DNA of 61,985 nt from Bacteroidales bacterium (GTDB lineage: Bacteria > Bacteroidota > Bacteroidia > Bacteroidales > UBA932): NCBI GenBank assembly GCA_017429765.1, contig JAFROJ010000047.1:1-61985 (forward strand). Direction: 5' to 3'. Made by a program: the position numbers and the translations under genes. The number at the start of each line of letters is the position of its first letter. The stretch's first letter is position 1. Below, piece after piece: positions 1 through 20,616 of the stretch. The notes under the pieces are model-generated. The model ran no database searches and had not been told where the DNA came from. It saw only the letters and a program-made list of their open reading frames with translations.

Positions 1-188
1 AAGCCGGTCTCAAATTCTTTCAGAAGGGAGAACGAGAAACTCTTGGTGGCCTCATTGCAGGCGTCCTGTCTCGTGTCAAGAGATATGGGCCTGAATTCAT
101 TATCCGGATTGTCGTCGATCACCTCTTTCTGGCATCCGAAGAGTGCCAGAGAGAGGAGCAATGTGCAACAATAAAAAAGTTTATTCAT
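1..188 (-). CDS. Serpin-like lipoprotein (partial, C-terminus outside window)
   Basis: The first 62 codons of a minus-strand gene are present and the rest lies beyond the window edge. The protein opens with a lipoprotein signal (hydrophobic stretch ending in ALFGC, Cys at residue 19), so it is probably anchored on the cell surface or periplasmic face. After a short acidic linker comes a segment with NEATKSFSFSLLKEFE, which resembles the first helix of the serpin fold (phenylalanines spaced as in FAFxLxKxL). The next gene upstream in transcription (310-1644) is a clear serpin with a similar layout, so a tandem pair is the best reading. The reactive loop is not in the window, so inhibitory ability cannot be judged. 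Base composition is AT-rich like the rest of the 1-5.8 kb island. Confidence 0.6.
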   Translation of the reverse strand, partial: MNKLFYCCTLLLSLALFGCQKEVIDDNPDNEFRPISLDTRQDACNEATKSFSFSLLKEFETG

Positions 189-309
189 TAGTTTCAGCGA
201 TTATATTATGCATCAATTCCAGTAATCAACAGGAGAGATTCTTTGTGTATACGTCATGTTGTATTTATACTCTACATCATTGAGTTCCGCCTCTGAATTA
301 ATGGAAAGC

Positions 310-1644
310 CTAAGATCCTGAATATGTTCCAATGAATAGAACAAGTCCGGACCCGGCCTCGGAAATCATGAAAGCGAAAGGATGGTTGGCGTTGAATATC
401 TCTATTTGCTCTGAATCTTTATTATCAATTACTCCCGAAGCCTGGGTGGTTGTCGCCGCGGAGGCTCCTTCCTCATTAATTTCCACAAGCGTTTTCTGCT
501 TTATACGCGTGAAAGGGAACACATGCGCCCCTTCTTTCGCCAATCCATCCATTTGGTTGAAATATGATTTTTTGAAAGAATCGTCTATGTAAGAGAACAC
601 GTTGTTCTCATTAAAAGAGACTGAGAACCGAGGAACACTTAGTGAGACTTTTTTCAACAACAAATTCTCGCGGATAGTGTTCCATGTTTTAGCGCTCATC
701 CCTTCTATGACACTATCAAGGGTTTTGCCGGTGTTAGGTAACACAATAGTGAAAAGGAAAGAAGCGTTTCCAAACGGAAGAATAGCTGCCGAGAAAGAGT
801 CTCCTTTATAAAAAGGATAATATCCCAACCTTGACATTAAAGGTTTCTCCACAGTCGCGTTATCGTCAATATAGAAAGGTTGGTTGCTTGTCTGGTTTGG
901 ATCGAATGTATATGACCACGTTCCATTGAAACACAAGACGTTGAACAAGGATGCCATTTCCGGCAAGACCGGTTCAGGAGCACGGTCAATCAATCCGGAC
1001 GTCTTTCCTTTTACCCAAAGATCCTCGGGCCTTTCTCCAATGGGTTGGTCTTCCAAAGATTTGGCCTCTAATACGGAATAATCCACGAGATAATAATTCT
1101 TCAACTTTCCTAAAAACTCTTCCGGAAAATCTGGAACCCCGATGTCTTTCATAAGAGCGTTGGCGACAATCATCCTCGTGTCTTCACCAATCTTAGCCAC
1201 ATCGCTGATCAGTTTATTGAAATAAGAGTTAACTTCTTCAATGCAACCCTTGATTCCAATCATTTCAGTCAGAGCGGAATTATCCGGGATTTGATTCCCC
1301 AACATTCCGCATATGAACTGTACGCTCAAAGGACTTGAAATGACACTCGCTGGTTTATTATCCTTGAATTCTTTAGCGAAGTATCTGAAAGTGAATTCGT
1401 TGCCAGGAGTGATATTCGTCATTTCCCCCTCGTTTAAAGAGAGCTTTGTCTGTGGGGGTGTATATTGGCTTTCCGATGACGATGGCGTGGCCTCATTGTT
1501 TTCGGTATTATTCTCCGTCACAACTTCCGCTTTCTCAGGCTGCTCCACAATCTCTTTCTTGACAGGGTTCTCTCTCTCGCACGAGACAAAAAGCGGCGCC
1601 AAAACCGCCAAAGCGAAGAGGGAATATTTAGTGATTGTTTTCAT
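310..1644 (-). CDS. Secreted/lipoprotein serpin with inhibitory-type hinge
   Basis: A 444-residue serpin with an N-terminal lipoprotein-type signal (Cys at about residue 22), a low-complexity Glu/Thr/Ser linker to about residue 75, and then a full-length serpin domain. Serpins trap proteases by a conformational change after cleavage of an exposed reactive loop. The hinge here reads EEGASAATTT (residues 391-400), close to the inhibitory consensus of small residues at P15-P8. Counting from P17 (E391) puts P1 at D407 with P4-P1 GVID. The conserved distal segment (NANHPFAFMI) and a C-terminal FIGTYSGS follow. It is transcribed after the C10 protease gene (135 bp gap) and before a second serpin, suggesting either self-protection against that protease or defence against host proteases. 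The fold call is firm; the target is inference. Confidence 0.9.
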   Translation of the reverse strand: MKTITKYSLFALAVLAPLFVSCERENPVKKEIVEQPEKAEVVTENNTENNEATPSSSESQYTPPQTKLSLNEGEMTNITPGNEFTFRYFAKEFKDNKPASVISSPLSVQFICGMLGNQIPDNSALTEMIGIKGCIEEVNSYFNKLISDVAKIGEDTRMIVANALMKDIGVPDFPEEFLGKLKNYYLVDYSVLEAKSLEDQPIGERPEDLWVKGKTSGLIDRAPEPVLPEMASLFNVLCFNGTWSYTFDPNQTSNQPFYIDDNATVEKPLMSRLGYYPFYKGDSFSAAILPFGNASFLFTIVLPNTGKTLDSVIEGMSAKTWNTIRENLLLKKVSLSVPRFSVSFNENNVFSYIDDSFKKSYFNQMDGLAKEGAHVFPFTRIKQKTLVEINEEGASAATTTQASGVIDNKDSEQIEIFNANHPFAFMISEAGSGLVLFIGTYSGS

Positions 1645-1779
1645 TATGTTGTTAGTTTAAATCAAAACGTTGAGGTCTTTATTTGTAATAACTCAAAAAT
1701 AGAAATAAAGTCAAAATAATACAACCATCTACTAAATCCCAAAATTACAAAACCTTGCATAAACAACAGCAAGGAGTCA

Positions 1780-3234
1780 TCACAAAAGATTCCCGGTTTC
1801 TAAATTATATAAAATCAATGGACTCACGCTGTAAATCCAGTTACTATTCGAAGTGTCTATACTGTAACATCCGTTGTCGTTTTGGCCGTCCCAACCGTAA
1901 TTCATCAAAAGGTATTTCGTTGAATCGCTGTAATGAGTATGTCTTGACCAACCATCATATATGTTAGGACATTCCAAATGAGCTTCCGCATCGGTAAGAT
2001 AGATTGCTCCCGTAGGATATAGAACACCAGTCTGGTAGGCATAGTAGATAATGGTGCTGTCTGTTGAGAAAGTCCTGTCAACCAGACCGTCTATTATCCA
2101 CGCATGTCCGCTATTTTGATTGTTATATGCCACCACAAGAACCGGTTTCGCGTCTAAAATATTACTCTTTACCGTAGAGTATGAATAAGAAGAGGAGTTT
2201 GCGCTTGTAAAACCACAAGGAGAAAGATTACTGTAGGAATATAGCGGGGCGCTTGTAGCCGCTGATGCATACGTTGCGTTCATTCTTACTCCCACGTCCA
2301 TTATTAGATCTGAGACATAAGATGCGTTTCCTGTACCGTTTTGGGTCTTGGGCATAGATTCCCAATGGGGAGAGTATTGATAGTAATCACTTTTAGAAAG
2401 GCTTAATTTATATTTACCACCATTTAAACTTTGGGAAATGGTGGGGGTTATTTGATGCCATAAATCAGAGGGATATCCAGTAAGAGAATGGAAATAATAC
2501 AATACTTGAGATACGGCTGTAGGTGCGCAGCCCGTTAAAAAATGCGACTCAAAACCCAACTCCAAGATAACAGGGTCTAACGGAAGGTTCATATTCCAAG
2601 GATAACTCTGCCCCCATTTGGTCTCAATCAGATGTGGTACGCTATCAACCACATTCGAAGTGCTGACAGTAATAATCTTCACCCAAGTAAGATCGCCACC
2701 CGGTTCAAGTGATTTGCTGGAAGAACTGCTCAAACCCTTTTTTATTCCGTTCCAAAACGCGACGGTTTTCGGGTTTATCTCACCTTCAGGCCTCCCAAAG
2801 GTTTTCACATGATAGATGAAATTAGCTGTTGTCTCAAGCCAGGCCTTCAATCCTTCGTTTTCCAATGTTTCGGGGTCTAAGTTGTCAACTTCGCTGTCCC
2901 CAAGGATTGATTTCGCCCTTGAATCAGCAGAAACAGCCATCCATCCTTTCTCGAAATTGATGATGTAGAAACAGGTAACGCCCTTATATGTGTATGCTTC
3001 TGTGCTGACAATCTCAGACTTTCCCTTAATGATCCTTACATATTCTTGGGCCATTTCCGCGGTTATCTCATATTTATCACCATCACCCTTCGCCTCTGAT
3101 CGTGTCAAGAAAGAAGGACTATTATCCTTCGTTGGAGAAAGAACCTCTTCAGGATAAGATGATTCACATGAGGATAAGCAGACCATGGCAAAGATCGCGC
3201 TTGCCATGAAACAGAGAATGTGATTGATTCTCAT
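1780..3234 (-). CDS. C10 family (streptopain-like) cysteine protease lipoprotein
   Basis: A 484-residue secreted cysteine protease. Residues 1-23 form a lipoprotein signal ending LSSC. Residues about 50-150 look like the inhibitory Spi/C10 propeptide, with aromatic and VSADSRAKSILG-type sequence. The mature domain has the catalytic cysteine in TGCAPTAVSQVLYYF (C236) and the catalytic histidine in SGHAWIIDG (H377), followed by the NYGWDG motif typical of the family. Streptopain and Bacteroides Bfp enzymes belong to this clan CA family and are secreted as zymogens. The gene follows the DUF3244-like gene by 11 bp, so the two are almost certainly co-transcribed, and the serpins follow downstream. 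Base composition is AT-rich compared with the chromosome right of 5.9 kb, suggesting transfer. Confidence 0.9.
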   Translation of the reverse strand: MRINHILCFMASAIFAMVCLSSCESSYPEEVLSPTKDNSPSFLTRSEAKGDGDKYEITAEMAQEYVRIIKGKSEIVSTEAYTYKGVTCFYIINFEKGWMAVSADSRAKSILGDSEVDNLDPETLENEGLKAWLETTANFIYHVKTFGRPEGEINPKTVAFWNGIKKGLSSSSSKSLEPGGDLTWVKIITVSTSNVVDSVPHLIETKWGQSYPWNMNLPLDPVILELGFESHFLTGCAPTAVSQVLYYFHSLTGYPSDLWHQITPTISQSLNGGKYKLSLSKSDYYQYSPHWESMPKTQNGTGNASYVSDLIMDVGVRMNATYASAATSAPLYSYSNLSPCGFTSANSSSYSYSTVKSNILDAKPVLVVAYNNQNSGHAWIIDGLVDRTFSTDSTIIYYAYQTGVLYPTGAIYLTDAEAHLECPNIYDGWSRHTHYSDSTKYLLMNYGWDGQNDNGCYSIDTSNSNWIYSVSPLILYNLETGNLL

Positions 3235-3245
3235 TGTTTTTTTAT

Positions 3246-3650
3246 TTATGGTTTATTGAATTCTCCTTGATATTGTTGACCTGATGGCAGGGTAAATGTT
3301 AAGATATAGTGTCCCGAACCAAGATTGATAGGAATAATGGCATAGAGGTATTGTGTGTCGATGTTATATGAACAGAATCCTCCGTTGGTTGAGTTTAATA
3401 CATCGACCCCGATTACACCCATACTCTGTGAAAACCACAAGATGGCAGAGGACGTTATAGTTTCATAACTTGCTGAAATGGGTACATTAGACGGAGTTTT
3501 TGGAGGATTATTAGGAAGAGGATACGGATTGATAACAATTATAGAATCACGGCTGTAGCAAGGAGCCATCTCTGCCTTTAGATTTATCTGAAATCCAATA
3601 CAGAGAGCAAGAATTGAGATACTAAATAGAAAAGGGCTTGTTTTATACAT
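3246..3650 (-). CDS. Small secreted DUF3244-like protein
   Basis: A 134-residue protein with an N-terminal Sec signal (residues 1-26, ending NLKA) and a compact beta-rich remainder (alternating hydrophobics, SGHYILTFTLPSGQQYQGEF near the C-terminus). Size, signal and sequence pattern resemble DUF3244, small immunoglobulin-like secreted proteins of Bacteroidales often found beside C10 proteases. Its function is not established. It is the first gene of the unit that continues into the C10 protease 11 bp downstream. A role as chaperone, inhibitor or substrate adaptor of the protease is possible but unproven. No catalytic motif is visible. Confidence 0.6.
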   Translation of the reverse strand: MYKTSPFLFSISILALCIGFQINLKAEMAPCYSRDSIIVINPYPLPNNPPKTPSNVPISASYETITSSAILWFSQSMGVIGVDVLNSTNGGFCSYNIDTQYLYAIIPINLGSGHYILTFTLPSGQQYQGEFNKP

Positions 3651-3665
3651 ATCTTTTTGTTTTCA

Positions 3666-3673
3666 CAAACATA
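3666..3673 (-). promoter_or_regulatory. Putative -7 element for the DUF3244/C10/serpin unit
   Basis: On the minus strand the sequence is TATGTTTG, an exact match to the Bacteroidota -7 consensus TAnnTTTG, 15 bp before the start codon of the DUF3244-like gene. No convincing TTTG lies at the usual -33 distance, so the promoter may need an activator. Confidence 0.45.
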
Positions 3674-3720
3674 GAACAATAATTACTAACGAGAAAAAGA
3701 AAAACATAACAGAAACAGCG

Positions 3721-3812
3721 TTGTAACGATATTGTTTATAAGTTAAAAATAATTAATTAGAAGACACTGATTTTCAATGTCTTAAAAAACAATAAAAAAG
3801 GCAGTTGTAACG
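3721..3812. promoter_or_regulatory. Pair of TTGTAACG boxes upstream of the protease unit
   Basis: TTGTAACG occurs at 3721-3728 and again at 3805-3812 (84 bp apart), in the 176 bp gap between the TPR regulator stop and the DUF3244-like gene. The same pair with 86 bp spacing lies upstream of the regulator gene. The proximal copy is part of CGTTGTAACG, an interrupted inverted repeat. This is a candidate operator or sigma-factor site inferred only from repetition. Confidence 0.4.
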
Positions 3813-3826
3813 GGCGAAAAAAGAGG

Positions 3827-5482
3827 TTATTCAAAAAAATAAAGATAACTCTCTTTGCCAGGTGCGTCAGACTCTTTAATCTTCTTTTTTAATCGACTTT
3901 TCTTAACCCTCGTATTTTCTAGAGTAGAGATATCCATGATAAGCGTTATAAGAGTATTATCAAATCCAGCGAACACTAAACTAGCCAAACGATAATCTTC
4001 GTTTTTTAAATTACGGAAATCGTTTCTGAAGGCATCCATTATTCCATCAGATTCAATATTCAGAAGCTTTTCAAATTCTGTTTGACTCTTCTTGTCTTTT
4101 CCTAAAATCTTAGTTTGGCTGCTAATTATTTGGTACAACTTTTCAGCAGATAGGTCTTTTCCATTTCTGCCTATACCGTGAACCCCTTCGAATAGTTGAG
4201 ACAAGTACTTAAAATGCCGTCTTGTCCTATTTATTCTTATAGTATCAAAATGATCGTTTACAATCTTTAATTCGCGAACACGTTCTTTCAAAGAATCAAT
4301 AATAATATCTTTCCGACCATTTTCTTCTTGCTGCGTTTTTCTTTTCCACAACAGATAGGATGAACTAATTAAAGAAAGAGATAAAAAGAAAAGAAATAGA
4401 AATAAAAACCTCCAACCCCTCCTTTGGGATCTGAGTTCTTGTTCTTTCAGGCGATTTTCCAAGAAGGCCTTTTGTGCAATTGACGCGGATCTGTTTATGC
4501 TCTCTCGCGAAATTGAGTCTGTGTACTCTTTAGCAGACCATAATAAATAATATGCATCCCTGAAATTCCCTTGGGCTTTACATAGCCGGTACTTCCAATA
4601 GTCATATGAGGACTTTTCTGTCTCGGTATTATGTGGTATGGTTTCAAATAAGAGGTTTGATTCTTCTGTCAATCCAATATACCCGAGAGAATACGCATAT
4701 GCGAAATATTGATCGTAACCATCAAGACCTCCGTTGATTGTTAAGGCGTTTTTGAAATGATCCACGGCAAGGGCATCGTCAATTTTCTGATTATAGAGAA
4801 TGTACATCGCATAATCAGCCTCTATCGTTCCAACTTCTCTATGGGAAAGAGAGTTCTCTGACATTAATTGTTGGAAATAGTTTCCGGCTTCTTCCAGTTT
4901 GGTTTGTCGGACCAACATCCTCGCCTTAATGATTTTCTCTAACGCTTCTTGATCTTTCCTTCCACATTCTGAAAAGCTCTGAATCGATTTGTCAATGTAC
5001 TCTTCGGCCAAAGCATATTCTTCGGTAGAGGTATATGTTTCCGCTATTTTAGAGTACAGAACCCCAACCAGGTTTTTGTCTGTGTCTTCTAGAATCGATT
5101 CCTCTGCTTTATAGAAAGAAACAATAGCCTGACGATAATCTTTCAAGTTATGATAGATCGTCCCCATGTACATAAACGCCTTGAGCCGCTCTTCGGGAGA
5201 GCCGTGTCTGGAGTAATAGTCAACAGCCGGCAGGACGACTCTGGTGTCCGCCGTGTCGATGTAGTTCTTGTCCAGCGCCATGGCGTGGAGAAGGGAGAAC
5301 TTGGCCTTCTCGGCTCGTGTTTTCAGGTCGAGGGTGTCAATGGCCCGGAGGACCGACAGGGCGCTGTCGGGTCGATCGTCGATGTAAGACTCCACATCCG
5401 AAAGCCGTTCCATCATCCTTCCCCCGCAAGAGGATAGCGTTAGCGTCACTAGCGCGCAGATAATCAATACATTTTTTCTCAT
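3827..5482 (-). CDS. TPR membrane lipoprotein with C-terminal HTH (putative regulator)
   Basis: The protein has about 551 residues if it starts at the ATG at 5482, which gives a proper lipoprotein signal (LTLSSC, Cys at residue 19). A longer frame to 5557 would run through a -7 element and lacks a signal at its start. Residues about 70-340 are tetratricopeptide-like helical repeats. A transmembrane helix (FLFLFLFFLSLSLISSSYLL) falls near residues 352-375, followed by a coiled-coil segment and a C-terminal LuxR-like helix-turn-helix with the characteristic end KSRLKKKI. This architecture is common in Bacteroidota and is thought to regulate neighbouring genes, here most likely the protease/serpin unit 176 bp downstream. 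The 5' third of the gene (from about 5150) is GC-rich while the rest is AT-rich, so the gene looks chimeric. Confidence 0.75.
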   Translation of the reverse strand: MRKNVLIICALVTLTLSSCGGRMMERLSDVESYIDDRPDSALSVLRAIDTLDLKTRAEKAKFSLLHAMALDKNYIDTADTRVVLPAVDYYSRHGSPEERLKAFMYMGTIYHNLKDYRQAIVSFYKAEESILEDTDKNLVGVLYSKIAETYTSTEEYALAEEYIDKSIQSFSECGRKDQEALEKIIKARMLVRQTKLEEAGNYFQQLMSENSLSHREVGTIEADYAMYILYNQKIDDALAVDHFKNALTINGGLDGYDQYFAYAYSLGYIGLTEESNLLFETIPHNTETEKSSYDYWKYRLCKAQGNFRDAYYLLWSAKEYTDSISRESINRSASIAQKAFLENRLKEQELRSQRRGWRFLFLFLFFLSLSLISSSYLLWKRKTQQEENGRKDIIIDSLKERVRELKIVNDHFDTIRINRTRRHFKYLSQLFEGVHGIGRNGKDLSAEKLYQIISSQTKILGKDKKSQTEFEKLLNIESDGIMDAFRNDFRNLKNEDYRLASLVFAGFDNTLITLIMDISTLENTRVKKSRLKKKIKESDAPGKESYLYFFE

Positions 5483-5487
5483 GCGCA

Positions 5488-5495
5488 CAAAGATA
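5488..5495 (-). promoter_or_regulatory. Putative -7 element for the TPR regulator
   Basis: Minus-strand TATCTTTG matches TAnnTTTG exactly and ends 5 bp before the ATG at 5482. It rules out the longer start at 5557 and implies a very short or absent 5' leader. No clear -33 element is seen. Confidence 0.45.
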
Positions 5496-5533
5496 TTATT
5501 AGTTATCAAAAAAGAAGGGTTATTAACAGGTTC

Positions 5534-5627
5534 TTGTAACGCTTTTTTTACGAACAACTTGGCCTCTTTGCGTTTGCCTATTGATTATTAAGAACTTATA
5601 AAAGAATTGGCGGAGCGGTTTGTAACG
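5534..5627. promoter_or_regulatory. Pair of TTGTAACGCTTTTT boxes upstream of the TPR regulator
   Basis: TTGTAACGCTTTTT occurs at 5534 and at 5620, each followed shortly by ACGAA, with box starts 86 bp apart. The proximal box is about 52 bp upstream of the regulator start. A related TTGTAACC lies at 8431 between yfhO and the nucleotidyltransferase operon. Candidate regulator or ECF sigma-factor sites shared with the protease unit. Confidence 0.4.
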
Positions 5628-5713
5628 CTTTTTCACGAAGGTTTACCAAAGTCGTCTGTAAATCGGGTCTTATTCAGGCGGCGAATCAAGAGTATCAACC
5701 CCCATTTATACTA

Positions 5714-5834
5714 ATTTTAGGCTGGTATGGAAGTGGTTGATTACTAGGTTATAACGCAATCAGATGGTACTGAAATCAGCACCATCTGATCACATAAAGT
5801 CTTTATATTCAAACACTTCCGTATCAGCCTAAAT
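5714..5834. repeat. Nested inverted repeat (about 121 bp)
   Basis: Outer arms of 27 bp (5714-5740 and 5808-5834) pair through AGGCTG, TA and GGAAGTG blocks. Two of the three substitutions between the arms would still allow G-U pairs in RNA. Inside lies a perfect 10-bp inverted repeat, ATCAGATGGT (5759-5768) and ACCATCTGAT (5781-5790), with a 12-nt loop. It begins 31 bp past the yfhO stop. There is no T-run, so it is not a standard terminator. A small non-autonomous mobile element or a structured 3' UTR would both fit. Confidence 0.6.
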
Positions 5835-5865
5835 CATTCTCTAAAGAGACGCGGGGCGCGGACAA

Positions 5866-8376
5866 TTATTTCCTGAAGACGAACAGTCCGCAGAGGGCGA
5901 GCAGAAGCAGGGCGAAGATGGCGGCTGAGGCGAAAAGGGAGATTCTGGCCCCGACTTTATAGGAACGGGGGTCCATCCTCATCGTGATCTCATGATTGCC
6001 GGCTGGGACGATCGCGCCCCTGAGGATCCAGTCGGCCCTGAATAAATCCAGCCTTGTGCCGTCCTCAAGGCTTGCCCTCCAGCCGAAAGGATAGTAGATC
6101 TCGCTGAATATGGCGGCCCTTGGTTTTGAGGCTTTATAGCTGAATCTCAACTCGTTGGGAGCATAGGAGGTCATGACGATCCAATCATCTTCCCCCGCTG
6201 CCGGTGGCACGAAAACATCCTTGAAATCAGGTCCCAGGACAGCCGTCCCGCTTAGGTCGGTCTTCCCGAGAAGATCAATCTCCTCGTCGGGGTTGTCAGC
6301 CGTCACGGAGCTCCTGACAAACCATGCGTTGCCCATCGCCTGGGGGTTGAGGATGGGCGGCCAGTCGGCGTCCGCTATGAAATACTTGGTGTTCAACATT
6401 GCCAGCGCCGGAACAGGGGCGAGGTTTTTGTTGAACTGCTCCACTGTCTCATATTCCTGGATCGTCTTCCGGACAATGTTCAGCTCGTCCTTCAGGCGCT
6501 TCTCGATCAGGTCCTGGTAGCGGCCGAGCTTGGCGGCGCTGTAGCCGCCTATGCTCTTGTGATAGAAACTCGTCCTGGAGTCGTTGAACGCGTCCACGGT
6601 CAGGTCCGCCACCCTGAAAGACGGGCTCTCGTCCTCAAGGATCATCTTGTCCACCTCCCTCTCGGACCAGTTTCCGCTGAAGTCGTTCCACTTTGTGAAA
6701 TGGCTGGAATTCAGATATCTCCTTCCTGTCCCGAAGAAGTTGACCGTCACCAGGAGACAGACAGCCGCGGCCGCAATGTTCCTTGAGCGGACAGGGTTTT
6801 TCTTCCTGAAGGACCAGACCAGGATCAGATAGGTCGCCGCGATCAACGCGAGCGACAGGAAAGCGTCGTTCCTGAGCAAAGTCTTTCTGTCCTGGATCAA
6901 AGCCTTGGCGTGGGCTTCTGACAGGGTGGGATCCACCGAGCCTTTGAAATCCCCCGCAAGACCGGGAATGACGCTGAAAATAAGGCAAATACCTCCGGTG
7001 ATGGCGAAAGCGATAAGTCCTTTCTTAATGAAGGCCTTTTTGTCAACATCTCCTTTCAGAATCCTGTCCAACGCGATGAAAGCCAGCATCGGGACAACGA
7101 ACTGGAGAATCACAAGGGCCATCGACACCGCCCTGAACTTATTGTAGAAAGGCACGTGGGCGTGGAAGAACCTTGTGAGAGGCATGATGTTGTTCCCGAG
7201 AGCCAGTCCTATCGAAAGGATGGCGGCCGCCAGCATCCACCACTTGTCCTTCCCTTCACAAACCAAGAGGCCTAAAACGAAAAGGAATATGCTGATGGCT
7301 CCGACGTACATCGGCCCGGCCGTTCCTGGCTGCGGGCCCCAGTAAAGCGGCTGCTCCTTGACAACCTGACTCTTATTCTTGACGTCCGATGCCTTGATCA
7401 GTTCCTCGGTCTTGGAGTTCCTGGGCAAAGCCCCCTTGGTCGCTCCTCCGTTGAAGTTGGGGATCATCAGGTTGGGAAGTTCCTCCCAGCCGTAGGAGAA
7501 GGCTGTTGAATAGTCGAGATCGAGACCCTCGGAAGATCCCCCCGAGAGTTCGGAGCCTCCCCTGGTCGTCTGGGAGGTGTATTCCCAGACAGGCACAAGG
7601 TCGCAGGCGCTTGTCGCGAAACCGGCACCGCCCGCCACCAGCAACATGCCCGAGGCGGCCAGGAACCTCCACCATAGTTTCGAGAGCCTCTCCTTCGAGA
7701 GGCAGATCCAGACGACCAGGCCTATCACATAAAGGGCCACGATCAAGCCGAGGTACCATGTGATCTGGACGTGGTTGGCCTTGACCTGGAAGGCCATGGC
7801 AAAGCCTGAAAGCACCGCTCCGAGCAAGGTCGCCGGAAGCCATCTCTTCCACCCAACCGCCTCACTGTCAAGCGCTTTCTTGTAGGTGAATATTATTCCC
7901 GCGAGCAGCCAGGGAGCGAAAGCAAGGGCCAGCATCTTGGTGTTGTGGCCAGACTGGATGATCTGCATGTTGTACGAGCAGAAGGTCACGGCCACAGCCC
8001 CTCCCAAGGCCAGGATAGGGCTGATTCCGAGAACCAACATGAGCAGGAAAGCCCCGAGAAGCGAGAGAATCAGGGTGCTGGCGGGGCGGAATTTTTTCTG
8101 GCTCAGGAACTCGAAAACGGGCTTCAGCCAGTCGTTCCGGGAGTTGCCGGTCATCATGATCGTGGGCATCCCGCTGAAGGCCGCACCGGTCCAGGCCGTC
8201 TTGTCGTCGGGATGGGCCCCGTTCCACTCAAGGGTCTCGTGGCTCATCCCGAGATACTTCTCGAAATCGACGGCTCCGACCATCTTCCCGTGGAAGGTCT
8301 GCTCAGGAACGAAGCCGAGGGCCAAAGCCGCGAGGATCACGACGCAGGCAAGATATATTAGAGATTTCTTTTTCAT
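5866..8376 (-). CDS. YfhO family integral membrane protein
   Basis: An 836-residue polytopic membrane protein with an N-terminal helix, many hydrophobic segments across residues about 90-530, a soluble C-terminal part (about 560-800) and a final transmembrane helix (FASAAIFALLLLALCGLFVF). Size and layout match the Bacteroidota YfhO family (GT-C-like fold), whose characterised Gram-positive relatives act in glycosylation of cell-surface polymers. The periplasmic loop after the first helix contains the acidic and aromatic residues usual for such proteins. It diverges from the nucleotidyltransferase/HprK/PqqD/GT operon across an 84 bp promoter region, which suggests a shared surface-glycan role. 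The substrate is unknown. Confidence 0.8.
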   Translation of the reverse strand: MKKKSLIYLACVVILAALALGFVPEQTFHGKMVGAVDFEKYLGMSHETLEWNGAHPDDKTAWTGAAFSGMPTIMMTGNSRNDWLKPVFEFLSQKKFRPASTLILSLLGAFLLMLVLGISPILALGGAVAVTFCSYNMQIIQSGHNTKMLALAFAPWLLAGIIFTYKKALDSEAVGWKRWLPATLLGAVLSGFAMAFQVKANHVQITWYLGLIVALYVIGLVVWICLSKERLSKLWWRFLAASGMLLVAGGAGFATSACDLVPVWEYTSQTTRGGSELSGGSSEGLDLDYSTAFSYGWEELPNLMIPNFNGGATKGALPRNSKTEELIKASDVKNKSQVVKEQPLYWGPQPGTAGPMYVGAISIFLFVLGLLVCEGKDKWWMLAAAILSIGLALGNNIMPLTRFFHAHVPFYNKFRAVSMALVILQFVVPMLAFIALDRILKGDVDKKAFIKKGLIAFAITGGICLIFSVIPGLAGDFKGSVDPTLSEAHAKALIQDRKTLLRNDAFLSLALIAATYLILVWSFRKKNPVRSRNIAAAAVCLLVTVNFFGTGRRYLNSSHFTKWNDFSGNWSEREVDKMILEDESPSFRVADLTVDAFNDSRTSFYHKSIGGYSAAKLGRYQDLIEKRLKDELNIVRKTIQEYETVEQFNKNLAPVPALAMLNTKYFIADADWPPILNPQAMGNAWFVRSSVTADNPDEEIDLLGKTDLSGTAVLGPDFKDVFVPPAAGEDDWIVMTSYAPNELRFSYKASKPRAAIFSEIYYPFGWRASLEDGTRLDLFRADWILRGAIVPAGNHEITMRMDPRSYKVGARISLFASAAIFALLLLALCGLFVFRK

Positions 8377-16085: not shown

Positions 16086-17948
16086 ATGGAAAGCCGTTAT
16101 GACATAATTGTCGTCGGCGGGGGTCACGCCGGTTGCGAGGCGGCTGTCGCCGCGGCGAACCTCGGGTGTTCCGTCCTGCTCCTGAACGCCGACCTTCGGA
16201 GCTTCGGGAGAATGTCTTGCAACCCGGCGGTCGGCGGAATAGCCAAAGGACAAATCGTCCGCGAGGTCGACGCGCTCGGCGGAATGATGGGACTGGTCAC
16301 AGACGCCACGACCCTCCAATTCCGGATGCTGAACCGTTCGAAGGGTCCGGCGATGTGGAGCCCGAGGGCGCAGTGCGACAAACAGGCCTTTTCCTCGTGC
16401 TGGCGTACAATTCTCGAAACTCATTGTAAATTAAACATTTACGCCGATTTTGCGGATTTTTTCCTCTTTGAGAATTCAAAAATCGCCGGAGTTCGTACAA
16501 CCACCGGGGCGATTTTCAAATCTCAAGCGGTTATCTTGACCGCCGGAACCTTCCTTGGAGGGAAACTTTTCATTGGGAGGACTTCTTTCGAGGGAGGAAG
16601 GATCGGAGAGCTGGCGTCGCATGGTCTGACCGAGCAGCTCGTCTCTCTCGGGATCCGGACGGGAAGGATGAAGACAGGGACTCCTCCCAGGATCGACATC
16701 TCCTCTGTCGACACCTCGAGGCTCACCCTTCAGCTTGGCGACCCGGAGCCGGAGAGGTTCTCCTATCTCGATGTTCCCTCTTCGGTTCAGGGGGGATCTC
16801 CCCAGATGCCTTGTTACATCCTTCACACGAATTCGAAAGTTCACGACATCTTGCGGGAAGGTTTCAAGGACTCTCCCCTGCTGAACGGGCTGATCACCGG
16901 CAAAGGCCCGAGGTACTGTCCGAGCATCGAGGACAAGCTTCGGGTTTTCCCTGACAACGACTCGCACCAGCTGTTCCTTGAGCCGGAGGGGCGGGACACT
17001 AATGAGTACTATCTCCAGGGATTCTCCTCCTCGCTTCCTCTTCAGACCCAGCTCGACGCTCTCCACGCGATCGAGGGCTTAGAGTCAGTTAGAATATTCA
17101 AACCCGCCTACGCTGTCGAATATGACTATTTCGACCCTACTCAGTTGAAGGCGACTCTTGAGCTTAAGGATGTCGAGAATCTTTATTTCGCGGGCCAGGT
17201 CAATGGCACCACGGGCTACGAGGAGGCGGCGGCGCAAGGCATCATGGCGGGGATAAACGCGGCTTTGAAAGTTCAGGGAAAGGATCCTTTTATATTAAAT
17301 AGGGACGAGTCTTACATCGGGGTTTTGATTGATGATTTGATCACCAAGGGTGTGGACGAGCCGTACAGGATGTTCACTTCACGGGCGGAGTACAGGATCC
17401 TTTTGAGGCAGGATAATGCGGATTTCCGACTGACTGAAAAGTCGTTCAATTTGGGCCTGGCTTCAGAAAAGCGTTACACGATAATGGACTCCAAGCGCTC
17501 CCAGGCGGGGATTCTGAAAGAAAAGTGTTACAACACCAAGTTACGGCACGAGGTGGTCAACCCCTATCTTGAGTCTTGCGGATCGACTCCATTGACGGAC
17601 TCAAAGAGGGTTTTTGAGTTGGCTTCTCGACCGGAAGTGAAGCTTTCTGAATTGTTGAAATTTGTTCCACGTGGAACAAATTTCTCGAAAGAGATTGTGG
17701 AATCGGTGGAAATCGAGTTGAAATATAAAGGCTATATCGATCGTGAGAGAGCTGTCGCGGAGAAGATCTCCCGCCTTGAGAATTTAAAGATTCCAGAGGG
17801 TTTTGATTTCGACAGCATAACCGGCCTCTCGATAGAATGTCGCCAGAAATTCAACCGCTATCAGCCCCGCACCATCGCCCAGGCCTCCCGCATTTCCGGC
17901 GTCTCCCCTTCCGACATCTCCATCCTCCTCGTCTACTTCGGCCGCTAA
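16086..17948 (+). CDS. mnmG: tRNA uridine-5-carboxymethylaminomethyl modification enzyme MnmG
   Basis: A 620-residue FAD protein that with MnmE modifies the wobble uridine of several tRNAs. The dinucleotide-binding [12 protein letters not shown] is at residues 9-20, followed by [14 protein letters not shown] and the C-terminal GidA-associated domain. It is co-transcribed with ybeY (4 bp gap). A 16-bp parS-like site (17663-17678) is embedded in the coding sequence and adds the peptide VPRGT near residue 528. The stop is 2 bp from the end of convergent ruvA. Confidence 0.96.
17657..17684. promoter_or_regulatory. parS-like ParB binding site inside mnmG
   Basis: TGTTCCACGTGGAACA at 17663-17678 is a perfect palindrome matching the bacterial parS consensus (TGTTNCACGTGAAACA and its symmetric form). 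The symmetry extends to 28 bp without mismatch (17657-17684). A second copy lies in sufS. ParB sites cluster near the replication origin in many bacteria. Confidence 0.8.
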
Positions 17949-17950
17949 GG

Positions 17951-18541
17951 TCACATCATTCGGAGGGCGGACTTGATGATCTGCTCGACTTTGGCGTTGG
18001 GGTTGGCTTTGAGAATGGTCTGGATGGCTTTGTTGACGGCAGGTTTGGCGAAGCCGAGCATGACGAGGGCGCGGGACGCCTCTTCCACAATCTCGTTTCT
18101 TGCTGATCCCCCGAACAGCTCTGAAGAATCAGCCCCCTCGCCCTTGACAACCTTGTCTTTGAGCTCGATGATGAGCCTCTGGGCGCTCTTCACCCCTATT
18201 CCCTTGACGCTCTTGATCCGGGCCACATCCTCGGACAGAATCGCCTGCCGGATCTCCTCTGAGGACAGCGAGGACAGCATCATTCTGGCTGAGGCGACAC
18301 CTATTCCGGAGACACTGATAAGAAGCTCGAAAAGCTCCCTCTCGTCTTTCGTCGCGAAGCCGAAATATTCCTCCACCTCCTCGCGGAGATAGTGGAAGAT
18401 GTAGACCTTGGCCTCCTTTTTCTCCTGAAGAGCCTGATAGGTTTGCAAAGATATCAAGATGCTGTAGCCGATGCCCCCGCACTCCAGGGTCAACTCTGCG
18501 GGCGACAGCTCGACAATGGTTCCTTTGATGTAGTCGATCAT
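17951..18541 (-). CDS. ruvA: Holliday junction branch migration protein RuvA
   Basis: A 196-residue DNA junction-binding protein that recruits RuvB. Domain I is an OB fold (MIDYIKGTIVELSPAELTLE). Helix-hairpin-helix motifs follow (LISVSGIGVASA and IKSVKGIGVKSAQRLI), and domain III is at the C-terminus. It diverges from sufS and converges on mnmG with a 2 bp gap. Confidence 0.95.
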   Translation of the reverse strand: MIDYIKGTIVELSPAELTLECGGIGYSILISLQTYQALQEKKEAKVYIFHYLREEVEEYFGFATKDERELFELLISVSGIGVASARMMLSSLSSEEIRQAILSEDVARIKSVKGIGVKSAQRLIIELKDKVVKGEGADSSELFGGSARNEIVEEASRALVMLGFAKPAVNKAIQTILKANPNAKVEQIIKSALRMM

Positions 18542-18558
18542 ATGCTCGGAATTCTGTT

Positions 18559-18595
18559 CAAAGATACGAAATCATTAATGATTTTGTTAATTTTG
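18559..18595. promoter_or_regulatory. Divergent ruvA / sufS promoter region
   Basis: Minus-strand TATCTTTG (18559-18566) lies 17 bp before ruvA, and plus-strand TAATTTTG (18588-18595) lies 24 bp before sufS. Both fit TAnnTTTG; no clear -33 elements. Confidence 0.45.
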
Positions 18596-18619
18596 TAAGT
18601 TAAGACAGTAAAAATCCAG

Positions 18620-19843
18620 ATGAGAATCCAGGATATCAGAAATATGTTTCCTGCCCTGACGGCTAGCGTCTACGGCAAGCCCCTGGTGTACTTCGACAAC
18701 GCCGCCACGAGCCAGAGGCTGGACAGCGTCGTCAGAAAGATGGAGGATCTGGCCTTTTGGAAAAACGCTAACATCCACCGGGCCGTCCACAGCCTTGCCT
18801 CCGCCGCCACCGAGGAATACGAGAGCGCCCGAGACGCCGTCCGGGAATATATCAACGCCGCCTCCAGGGAAGAGATTGTGTTCACCTCCGGCACGACCGA
18901 CTCCATAAACCTTGTCGCCTTTTCCTTCGGAGAGAGCTTTGTGAAAGAGGGCGACGAGATCGTCGTCACAGAGGAAGAGCACCACTCCAACATTGTCCCG
19001 TGGCAGATGCTCTGCCAGAGAAAGGGAGCTGTCCTGAAAGTCCTTGAGGTGGATGACCAGGGCCATCTGAAGACAGAAGACCTCCGCTCTCTAGTCACCG
19101 GGAAGACAAAACTCGTCGCGGTCACCCACATCTCCAATGTCCTGGGGATTATTAACCCTGTTAAAGAGATTGTAAACATTTGTCACTCAATGGGTTGTCC
19201 AGTCTTGGTCGACGGAGCCCAGGGAATAGTCCACGAGAGTGTTGATGTCCAGGATCTCGGCTGCGATTTCTACGCGTTCTCTGGCCATAAGATCTACGCC
19301 GCGACCGGAACCGGAGTCTTGTACGGGAAAAAGGAGTGGCTGGACAAGATGGTTCCTTATCAAGGCGGAGGGGAAATGATCTCAACGGTACGTTTCTCCG
19401 GAACCACCTATGCTCCTCTTCCGGGCAAATTCGAGGCAGGGACAAGGAATATTAATTCAATCCCTACTTTGAAGCCTGCTATGGATTTTCTGAAATTGTT
19501 GAGAGACAAGGAATTACAAAAAGAGACAGCCGCCGTGAGGGACTTCTTGCTCCAGGCTCTTCTGTCTCACGAAAGAGTGAGGTTGTATGGGGTTCCACGT
19601 GGAACAGAGGCAAAGATTCCCCTATTCTCGTTCACCGTGGATGGCGCCCATCATGAGGATCTCGCCCTGATTCTCGATAAGATGGGAATAGCCGTCCGTT
19701 CCGGCCAGATGTGCGCCGAACCGCTGATGGACCGTTACGGCGTGACGGGCATGGTCCGGGTCTCTCTTGCCCCCTACAACACCATGGAAGAGGCTGAAAA
19801 GTTTGTGGGATCGCTGGATAAGGCTATCTCAATGTTGATTTAA
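18620..19843 (+). CDS. sufS: Cysteine desulfurase SufS
   Basis: A 407-residue PLP enzyme that removes sulfur from cysteine for Fe-S cluster assembly. The PLP lysine is in FSGHKIYAATG (K224) and the persulfide cysteine in RSGQMCAEPLM (C365), typical of the SufS/CsdA class. It is followed 11 bp later by the sufE-sufT fusion, its sulfur acceptor. No sufBCD genes are in the window. A second parS-like site lies at 19591-19606, encoding VPRGT near residues 325-329, a position where SufS proteins do not normally carry this peptide. Confidence 0.95.
   Translation: MRIQDIRNMFPALTASVYGKPLVYFDNAATSQRLDSVVRKMEDLAFWKNANIHRAVHSLASAATEEYESARDAVREYINAASREEIVFTSGTTDSINLVAFSFGESFVKEGDEIVVTEEEHHSNIVPWQMLCQRKGAVLKVLEVDDQGHLKTEDLRSLVTGKTKLVAVTHISNVLGIINPVKEIVNICHSMGCPVLVDGAQGIVHESVDVQDLGCDFYAFSGHKIYAATGTGVLYGKKEWLDKMVPYQGGGEMISTVRFSGTTYAPLPGKFEAGTRNINSIPTLKPAMDFLKLLRDKELQKETAAVRDFLLQALLSHERVRLYGVPRGTEAKIPLFSFTVDGAHHEDLALILDKMGIAVRSGQMCAEPLMDRYGVTGMVRVSLAPYNTMEEAEKFVGSLDKAISMLI
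19591..19606. promoter_or_regulatory. parS-like ParB binding site inside sufS
   Basis: GGTTCCACGTGGAACA contains the 14-bp perfect palindrome GTTCCACGTGGAAC and differs from the mnmG copy only in its first base. It lies about 1.9 kb from that copy. Confidence 0.7.
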
Positions 19844-19854
19844 ACAATTTGATA

Positions 19855-20616
19855 ATGAGCACGTTGGAAGAAGCGAAAAAGGCTGTTGTCGAAGAGTTCT
19901 CCATGTACGATGAGTGGCTCGACAAGTACGAGTATCTCATCGATCTCGGAAAAAACCTCGAGCCATATCCTGAAGAGGAAAAGACCGAGGACAAGCTGAT
20001 CAAAGGCTGTCAGTCAAGAGTCTGGCTGGATTCCAGGTTCGAGGACGGGAAGATTTATTTCAAGGCGGACAGCGACGCCATAATCACCAAAGGGATCATT
20101 TCCCTCCTGATCTGGGTTTATTCCGGACGAGAGCCGAAAGAGATCGCCGAGGACGATTTCGGTTTCATCAGCGAGATCGGCCTCAAGGAGAACCTTTCCC
20201 CCACCAGGGCCAACGGTCTTGTCTCCATGATAGAGAGAATAAAGGAATTGGCTAAAGAGAAGGCCGCCACTCTGGATGACAATGTCCTGACCGCCGAGGA
20301 CGCCAAGGCTCTAGCGCCGTTGTACGACAACGTTGTGCTGGCCCTGAAACAGGTCTATGACCCGGAGATCCCGGTCAACATCTACGACCTCGGACTCATT
20401 TACGAATTGATTATCAACAAGAGACACGAGACGTACATAAAGATGACCTTCACGGCCCCGACATGCCCGATGGCGGACGAGGTGCTCGCCGACGTCAAGA
20501 AAAGCGTGTCCGATGTGCCAGGGATCAAGGCCTGCGAGGTCGAATTGACCTTCGACCCGCCTTGGGACCAGTCCATGCTATCCGAAGAGGCCCGAATAGA
20601 CCTTGGAATGGACTGA
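19855..20616 (+). CDS. SufE-SufT (DUF59/MIP18) fusion protein
   Basis: A 253-residue protein with two domains. Residues 1-140 are SufE, the persulfide acceptor that stimulates SufS, with its cysteine in LIKGCQSRVWL (C52). Residues about 155-253 are a MIP18/SufT domain with VYDPEIPVNIYDLGLIYEL and the reactive cysteine in FTAPTCPMAD (C204), linked to Fe-S cluster assembly or delivery. The ATG at 19855 is chosen over an in-frame TTG two codons upstream. It follows sufS by 11 bp. The fusion puts sulfur transfer and cluster maturation factors in one chain. Confidence 0.9.
   Translation: MSTLEEAKKAVVEEFSMYDEWLDKYEYLIDLGKNLEPYPEEEKTEDKLIKGCQSRVWLDSRFEDGKIYFKADSDAIITKGIISLLIWVYSGREPKEIAEDDFGFISEIGLKENLSPTRANGLVSMIERIKELAKEKAATLDDNVLTAEDAKALAPLYDNVVLALKQVYDPEIPVNIYDLGLIYELIINKRHETYIKMTFTAPTCPMADEVLADVKKSVSDVPGIKACEVELTFDPPWDQSMLSEEARIDLGMD

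Follow-up and report, generated by a model that had tools for sequence, protein, structure and literature searches.

Two probable chromosomal parS sites within the mnmG and sufS genes of a Bacteroidales species

Two closely similar palindromic words of 16 bp are found inside two unrelated genes, mnmG and sufS, of a Bacteroidales genome, and in both proteins the word is read as the peptide V-P-R-G-T. The question raised by this locus is whether the words are kept for the sake of the peptide or of the DNA and, if of the DNA, what function they serve. The window analysed is a whole contig (C33; 61,985 bases) of a draft genome of 2,362,535 bases in 75 contigs. We give a probability of about 0.93 to the reading, made from sequence, that the two palindromes are the chromosomal parS sites (the centromere) of this species. 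The sites and the genes around them are the following.

17663..17678, no strand: putative parS site 1, TGTTCCACGTGGAACA, in mnmG from the last base of codon 526 to codon 531, with V-P-R-G-T at residues 527-531
19591..19606, no strand: putative parS site 2, GGTTCCACGTGGAACA, in sufS, with V-P-R-G-T at SufS residues 325-329
17657..17684, no strand: 28-bp perfect palindrome enclosing site 1, with six more pairs flanking the 16-mer on each side
16086..17948, + strand: mnmG, host of site 1 (TIGR00136, 808.6 bits), which adjoins parS in most relatives examined
17951..18541, - strand: ruvA (TIGR00084, 194.7 bits), convergent with mnmG, with 2 bp between the stop codons
18620..19843, + strand: sufS, host of site 2 (TIGR01979, 505 bits)

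Both sites are 16-bp palindromes with a CACGTG core. A scan of the window with the 16-mer gave 0 mismatches for the mnmG site and 1 for the sufS site, and no third place was found at up to 3 mismatches; shuffled windows contained a mean of 0.17 matches at this threshold, and two matches were reached in 2 of 100 shuffles. The palindrome around the mnmG site is the sole perfect palindrome of at least 18 bp in the window. An initial annotation of this DNA had described the two parS-like sites, the 28-bp palindrome and the common VPRGT frame, and all three were found again, the frame by translation (GTT CCA CGT GGA ACA at both sites). The common frame alone is poor evidence because it has a 1-in-3 chance of arising. 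An even scatter of the palindrome around the genome would have spoken against that annotation, and no scatter was seen: the pattern GTTNCACGTGNAAC occurs genome-wide at exactly these two places, which lie within 1.93 kb of each other, whereas the reversed-pattern control gave 0 matches. By simple arithmetic, the chance that two random points in 2.36 Mb fall no more than 1.93 kb apart is about 0.002.

The word is a known one. In the Pseudomonas aeruginosa ParABS system, parS2 and parS3 are the identical 16-mer to the mnmG site, and that report describes 9 of 10 parS sites as predicted inside coding sequences, four as lying less than 16 kb from oriC, and ParB affinity as measured (PMC4368675). 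The systems differ in number and placement. The ten P. aeruginosa sites include low-affinity ones and two that lie across the chromosome from oriC (same report), whereas the genome studied here has just the mnmG site and the sufS site, and its parA-parB pair is on a different contig.

A profile search of the genome gave a single TIGR00180 match to ParB (188.2 bits), on contig C55. The parB gene (309 amino acids) is directly preceded by parA (257 amino acids), and the Pfam domains AAA_31, HTH_ParB and ParB_N are present, so that the genome has a chromosomal parA-parB pair, in keeping with the initial annotation, which had depended on the existence of a parB gene outside the window. Judged from spacing and alignment to the Spo0J/ParB chains 6sdk and 4umk, the protein carries residues equivalent to R173 and G201 (Caulobacter numbering), which are key to reading parS. 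These two residues are described as absolutely conserved in ParB and altered in Noc (PMC7383237). Noc and its site NBS are a similar case of a ParB-family protein with a related palindrome, but Noc has Q173 and R201 (PMC7383237), and the word found here is that of P. aeruginosa parS.

The comparison was extended to the genus of the window genome. Eighty genomes were chosen, namely the window's own, 76 further members of the genus and 3 others; many incomplete genus genomes without exact sites were left out. The mnmG region was taken from 68 of the 74 other genus genomes with a MnmG match, which with the window's own gives 69 genus genomes, and 60 of these 69 had site counts for the genome-wide comparison. 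The alignments exclude a partial outgroup MnmG (G293) and a cut SufS (G022). It was found that all 92 exact words held genome-wide by the 60 genomes fall within the mnmG-sufS stretch. The 14-bp core is exact in mnmG of 58 of the 69 genomes; the mnmG-ruvA gap is an alternative home of the second site in relatives, with an exact word at the gene end in 32 of 69, and the sufS word is exact in 13 of the 64 genomes that have sufS in the stretch. A quick MnmG tree requires no fewer than 9 changes for the mnmG word, 16 for the gene-end word and 4 for the sufS word. Counted from the table, an exact site is present in 69 of 91 genus genomes including the window's.

The gene-end and sufS sites were also considered as mutually exclusive, since none of 64 genomes combines an exact gene-end site with an exact sufS site (30 have only the former and 13 only the latter), and this idea was set aside because the tree offers only 2-4 independent pairs. 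In four loci (L136, L146, L151 and L181, from G083, G086, G089 and G401), sufS is apparently on the strand opposite mnmG, and the exact site is still present. The four genomes with one-mismatch words only (L153, L161, L180 and L194, from G022, G069, G404 and G050) are mostly altered inside the CACGTG core; the ParB preference of these genomes could have changed.

The codons at the mnmG site show what is being kept. MnmG codons 527-530 (GTT, CCA, CGT and GGA) have no synonymous change in the 69 genus genomes, and therefore the DNA itself is under selection. They rank 1-4 among 210 MnmG positions with a conserved four- or six-fold degenerate amino acid, the modal codon reaching 100% versus a mean of 44%, and CCA, at 9.5% of proline codons, is the rarest proline codon in these genes. 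The peptide VPRGT is missing from ten outgroup MnmG rows of other families, the segment is variable in length, and many genus MnmG proteins have in-frame inserts of up to about 100 residues straight after VPRGT, past codon 531 (for example, L176 and L178-L189). Long inserts directly after the peptide and outgroups without it indicate that this MnmG segment tolerates change. SufS residues 325-329 are variable as well.

The linkage of the word to mnmG reaches well beyond the genus. We collected 80 mnmG loci from named records by way of MnmG, covering about 4 kb on each side of mnmG, so that more distant sites are not visible in this set. The word is inside mnmG or no more than 200 bp away in 73 of the 80 loci; in overlapping classes, it is inside mnmG in 20, within 200 bp on the 5′ side in 20 and within 200 bp on the 3′ side in 55. 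Of the remaining loci, 6 have no word in the covered stretch and 1 has a word 331 bp away, and the reversed-pattern control gave 0 matches in 746 kb. Named records with a site include Flavobacterium, Tenacibaculum, Bizionia, Chryseobacterium, Prevotella, Parabacteroides, Bacteroides, Alistipes and Odoribacter. Two titles in this comparison appear to be at odds with the sequence: a contig titled as a Limnohabitans metagenome-assembled genome (L298) has a mnmG 56% identical to that of the window with parS words flanking it, and Muribaculum sp. An289 (L282) has a site inside mnmG at the place used by the window's genus.

The same linkage was obtained when the search started from the sites rather than from MnmG. 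At the order level, 25 of 30 loci (30 genomes, each represented by its first listed site) have a site 9-92 bp from an end of mnmG, the distance being taken from the mnmG alignment to the midpoint of the closest site; in three more genomes (G096, G122 and G147), another listed site adjoins mnmG, and two (G106 and G125) were not settled. In the phylum sample (loci L200-L226), 20 of 27 have a site within 250 bp of mnmG, the loci without one being L205-L209, from one family, together with L216 and L226. The words in the other-family loci of this site-based set lie outside mnmG except for one word in L200, and one word of L224 is located in ybeY. Exact matches are present in 120 of 150 genomes, compared with 7 reversed-pattern matches in the same 150 (counts from the table).

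The initial annotation had placed the window near the replication origin, and this is supported through the GC skew of relatives. The skew was sampled in 80 stretches of 20 kb in 7 one-contig genomes. It was negative in 38 of 41 stretches to the left of mnmG/parS and positive in 32 of 39 to the right, with a clear sign change in 5 of the 7 genomes (G209, G251, G265, G344 and G391). In G265 and G336, the stretch lying about 9-29 kb to the left of the site and the one 11-31 kb to its right differ in sign, and G265 also has one positive-skew stretch about 0.2 Mb to the left. The cumulative skew of the window itself reaches its minimum at kb 16 and falls almost as low at kb 19. Nearness to the origin is thus supported at a coarse scale in relatives, and the oriC position of the window's own 75-contig draft genome would follow from theirs. 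In the nine one-contig genomes that have an exact site, the distance from the site to dnaA is 20-49% of the chromosome, and that to parB is 55 kb to 1.66 Mb. Two of the one-contig records (G274:C1, locus L130, and G329:C1, locus L125) begin or end 0.6-2.4 kb from mnmG/parS; perhaps they were rotated to the skew minimum.

Published work agrees with this placement. The origin of a Flavobacteriaceae genome was placed at mnmG by Ori-Finder 2022 (PMC12843772), and parS was found at the skew origin of gut bacteria including Bacteroidetes, where dnaA is not reliably present (PMC10197239).

The origin-proximal position proposed in the initial annotation is thus supported by relatives, but its further clause, that SMC loads there, is not. 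The Pfam SMC_hinge profile matched 0 of 13 Bacteroidales genomes, including the window's, and 10 of 14 control genomes, with Caulobacter among the 4 silent ones. Caulobacter has Smc, and because it too was silent, a missing SMC_hinge match is not proof that Smc is absent. The absence of Smc from these Bacteroidales is therefore suggestive only, and SMC loading at these sites is not supported. The gut-bacterial study reports no known condensin in its two Bacteroidetes (PMC10197239). The interpretation in the initial annotation is otherwise supported overall.

How else might the two words be explained? Chance matches, or a repeat element that contains CACGTG, would be compatible with the 2 of 100 window shuffles that reach two matches; this is barely credible given the confinement of the word to two places genome-wide, the excess of true over reversed-pattern matches in the 150 genomes and the conservation of codons across 69 genomes. 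It might instead be that V-P-R-G-T is needed in MnmG and SufS and that the DNA identity follows from the protein. The peptide is indeed kept at MnmG 527-531 in most genus rows and also in the sister-genus genome G274, whose word differs by one base, and several genomes with a broken sufS word still read VPRG; both of these observations also weigh against selection on the DNA word. However, codons elsewhere in mnmG vary while codons 527-530 do not, the outgroup rows do without the peptide, the same word is mostly outside mnmG in other families, and in all 11 of the 69 genus genomes with a broken mnmG word the peptide is altered as well (VPHGT, VPCGT, VPRRT, VPHRT, or gone). We regard a need for the peptide as highly improbable, and as an explanation of the words it was rejected on the codon analysis.

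A further candidate, improbable but less so than the preceding two, is that ParB does not bind the palindrome, which would instead serve another DNA-binding protein as its target or act as a transcription terminator or attenuator of mnmG. The shape of some copies speaks for this. Of the genus sites, 36 fall outside the open reading frames called as mnmG and sufS (32 within 600 bp past mnmG and 4 sufS sites on the opposite strand), and 11 of these have a palindrome extended by 7-16 pairs beyond the 14-mer, compared with 1.9% when arms are randomly re-paired; many extended copies have an A-run before and a T-run after, and the RNA of one extended stretch folds at -17.6 kcal/mol. A terminator or an ordinary regulator, however, is not expected to be confined to one locus, as all 92 sites are; the word also lies 5′ of mnmG in 20 of 80 loci and inside two coding regions; neither a terminator nor such a regulator requires an invariant CACGTG core; and P. 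aeruginosa ParB binds this same word as parS (PMC4368675). The window sites, moreover, are inside genes and without a long T-run, whereas a terminator has a GC-rich stem followed by a T-run at a gene end, and the RNA of the mnmG palindrome stretch folds at -15.1 kcal/mol. Termination as the primary role was discarded because of the restriction to one locus. As a second role it may apply: the extended gene-end copies may double as a bidirectional terminator between the convergent mnmG and ruvA.

The length of these palindromes varies considerably. Eleven gene-end copies (L154, L177, L179, L184, L186-L188, L191-L193 and L198) are perfect palindromes of 28-46 bp, and that of L291 is at least 54 bp; the gene-end site of G076 was not placed relative to ruvA, and 53 of the 80 named-record loci were used in the palindrome analysis. 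Among the 58 exact genus mnmG sites, the palindrome exceeds the 14-mer by at least 5 pairs in about 8 and by at least 7 in about 3. The window's site has 7 such extra pairs and the near relatives G017, G033, G072 and G090 have 5, and the long mnmG palindrome of the window is thus uncommon.

Several observations weigh against identifying the two palindromes as parS sites at the origin. Four of the 69 genus genomes have only one-mismatch words, and 22 of the 91 are without an exact site, many of these being incomplete. The sister-genus genome G274 lacks an exact site and has only two words with one mismatch each, one located at mnmG codon 527 and the other 107 bp beyond the mnmG alignment, and the one-contig genome G339 has ParB and no exact site. 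An exact site is missing in 8 of 59 genomes of the order's other families (count from the table) and in 18 of 247 genomes of the phylum sample, and in family f113 none of the five loci L205-L209 has mnmG beside the site; the limited reach of the named-record set belongs here too. At positions 172 and 204, occupied by S and R in Caulobacter, the ParB of the window genome has K. As for the origin, the window genome is a draft in 75 contigs. The skew is weak in G274, the nearest closed relative (expected sign in 4 of 5 and 4 of 5 stretches), and one-sided in G336 (positive in 2 of 6 stretches on the right side). In 20-kb pieces around mnmG, the cumulative skew reaches its minimum at mnmG in just 2 of 12 genomes (G329 and G336), and the turn of the skew is therefore located with a precision of no better than tens of kb. 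Searches with TTATNCACA exactly and TTATCCACA with one mismatch, covering the window and the 20-kb pieces of 12 genomes (15.8 kb in one case), revealed no conspicuous cluster of DnaA boxes.

If the two palindromes are parS, the mechanism may be outlined by analogy with known ParABS systems, from which we infer ParB binding, loading, spreading and segregation at these sites. ParB dimers produced from the parA-parB pair on C55 would bind both sites, load as CTP-dependent clamps and spread across the mnmG-ruvA-sufS region, and ParA would then draw the origin region, once replicated, into the daughter halves of the cell. The sites would be intragenic where the stretch is densely coding, as it is between mnmG and ruvA. 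Both are in variable segments, presumably surface loops, that would tolerate V-P-R-G-T, so that selection for the DNA word would fix these codons along with their amino acids. A site just outside mnmG is probably the older state; in the genus, a site is found in the MnmG linker at codon 527, and second sites in the mnmG-ruvA gap or sufS have repeatedly been lost or gained.

A broader proposal, which we consider doubtful in its entirety and offer tentatively, is that the centromere of Bacteroidia is tied to mnmG independently of dnaA, parAB and an Smc condensin. Within the genus, it would make short hops among a place just past mnmG, the MnmG linker and the SufS loop, under a limit of about two exact sites with loss offset by gain, and some gene-end copies would also be the stem of a bidirectional terminator, combining transcription end and ParB loading on one palindrome.

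Two features of the window outside the mnmG-sufS stretch may be recorded. Positions 1-6000 have a low GC content (0.39-0.42, compared with 0.52-0.60 elsewhere) and contain a serpin adjoining a peptidase C10 gene with an inhibitor propeptide; this looks like an acquired island. At 19849-20616, a single protein of 255 amino acids fuses SufE and FeS_assembly_P (SufT-like) domains, the halves of which align as separate pieces in the relatives L054 and L060.

Parts of this picture have precedents. The Hi-C study of the OMM12 gut bacteria found that in Bacteroidetes parS clusters and GC skew mark the origin, which is not systematically at dnaA, as here; it differs in that the available part of the source neither names a gene next to the sites nor describes any site as intragenic (PMC10197239). 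In the Flavobacteriaceae genome, mnmG marks the origin and the GC skew was checked, but that genome is from another family, and no ParB site is discussed in the part available (PMC12843772). Intragenic parS and an origin at mnmG are thus already published; what this analysis adds is the recurrent linkage of parS to mnmG together with the codon constraint. Literature searches gave no title or abstract opening that describes parS as fixed at mnmG in Bacteroidota. The survey of Livny et al. (2007), the main one of parS sites, may list some of these.

These results suggest that a parS word beside or inside mnmG is a practical marker of the origin for uncultivated Bacteroidota, where dnaA misleads, and such a marker would aid the orientation of metagenome contigs and growth-rate (peak-to-trough) estimates. 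The locus also offers a clear natural case in which a function at the DNA level dictates amino acids in two conserved enzymes that are unrelated to each other, and the 69 genomes serve as replicates. Finally, it makes testable the effect of ParB-parS on chromosome folding in a lineage without a recognisable Smc.

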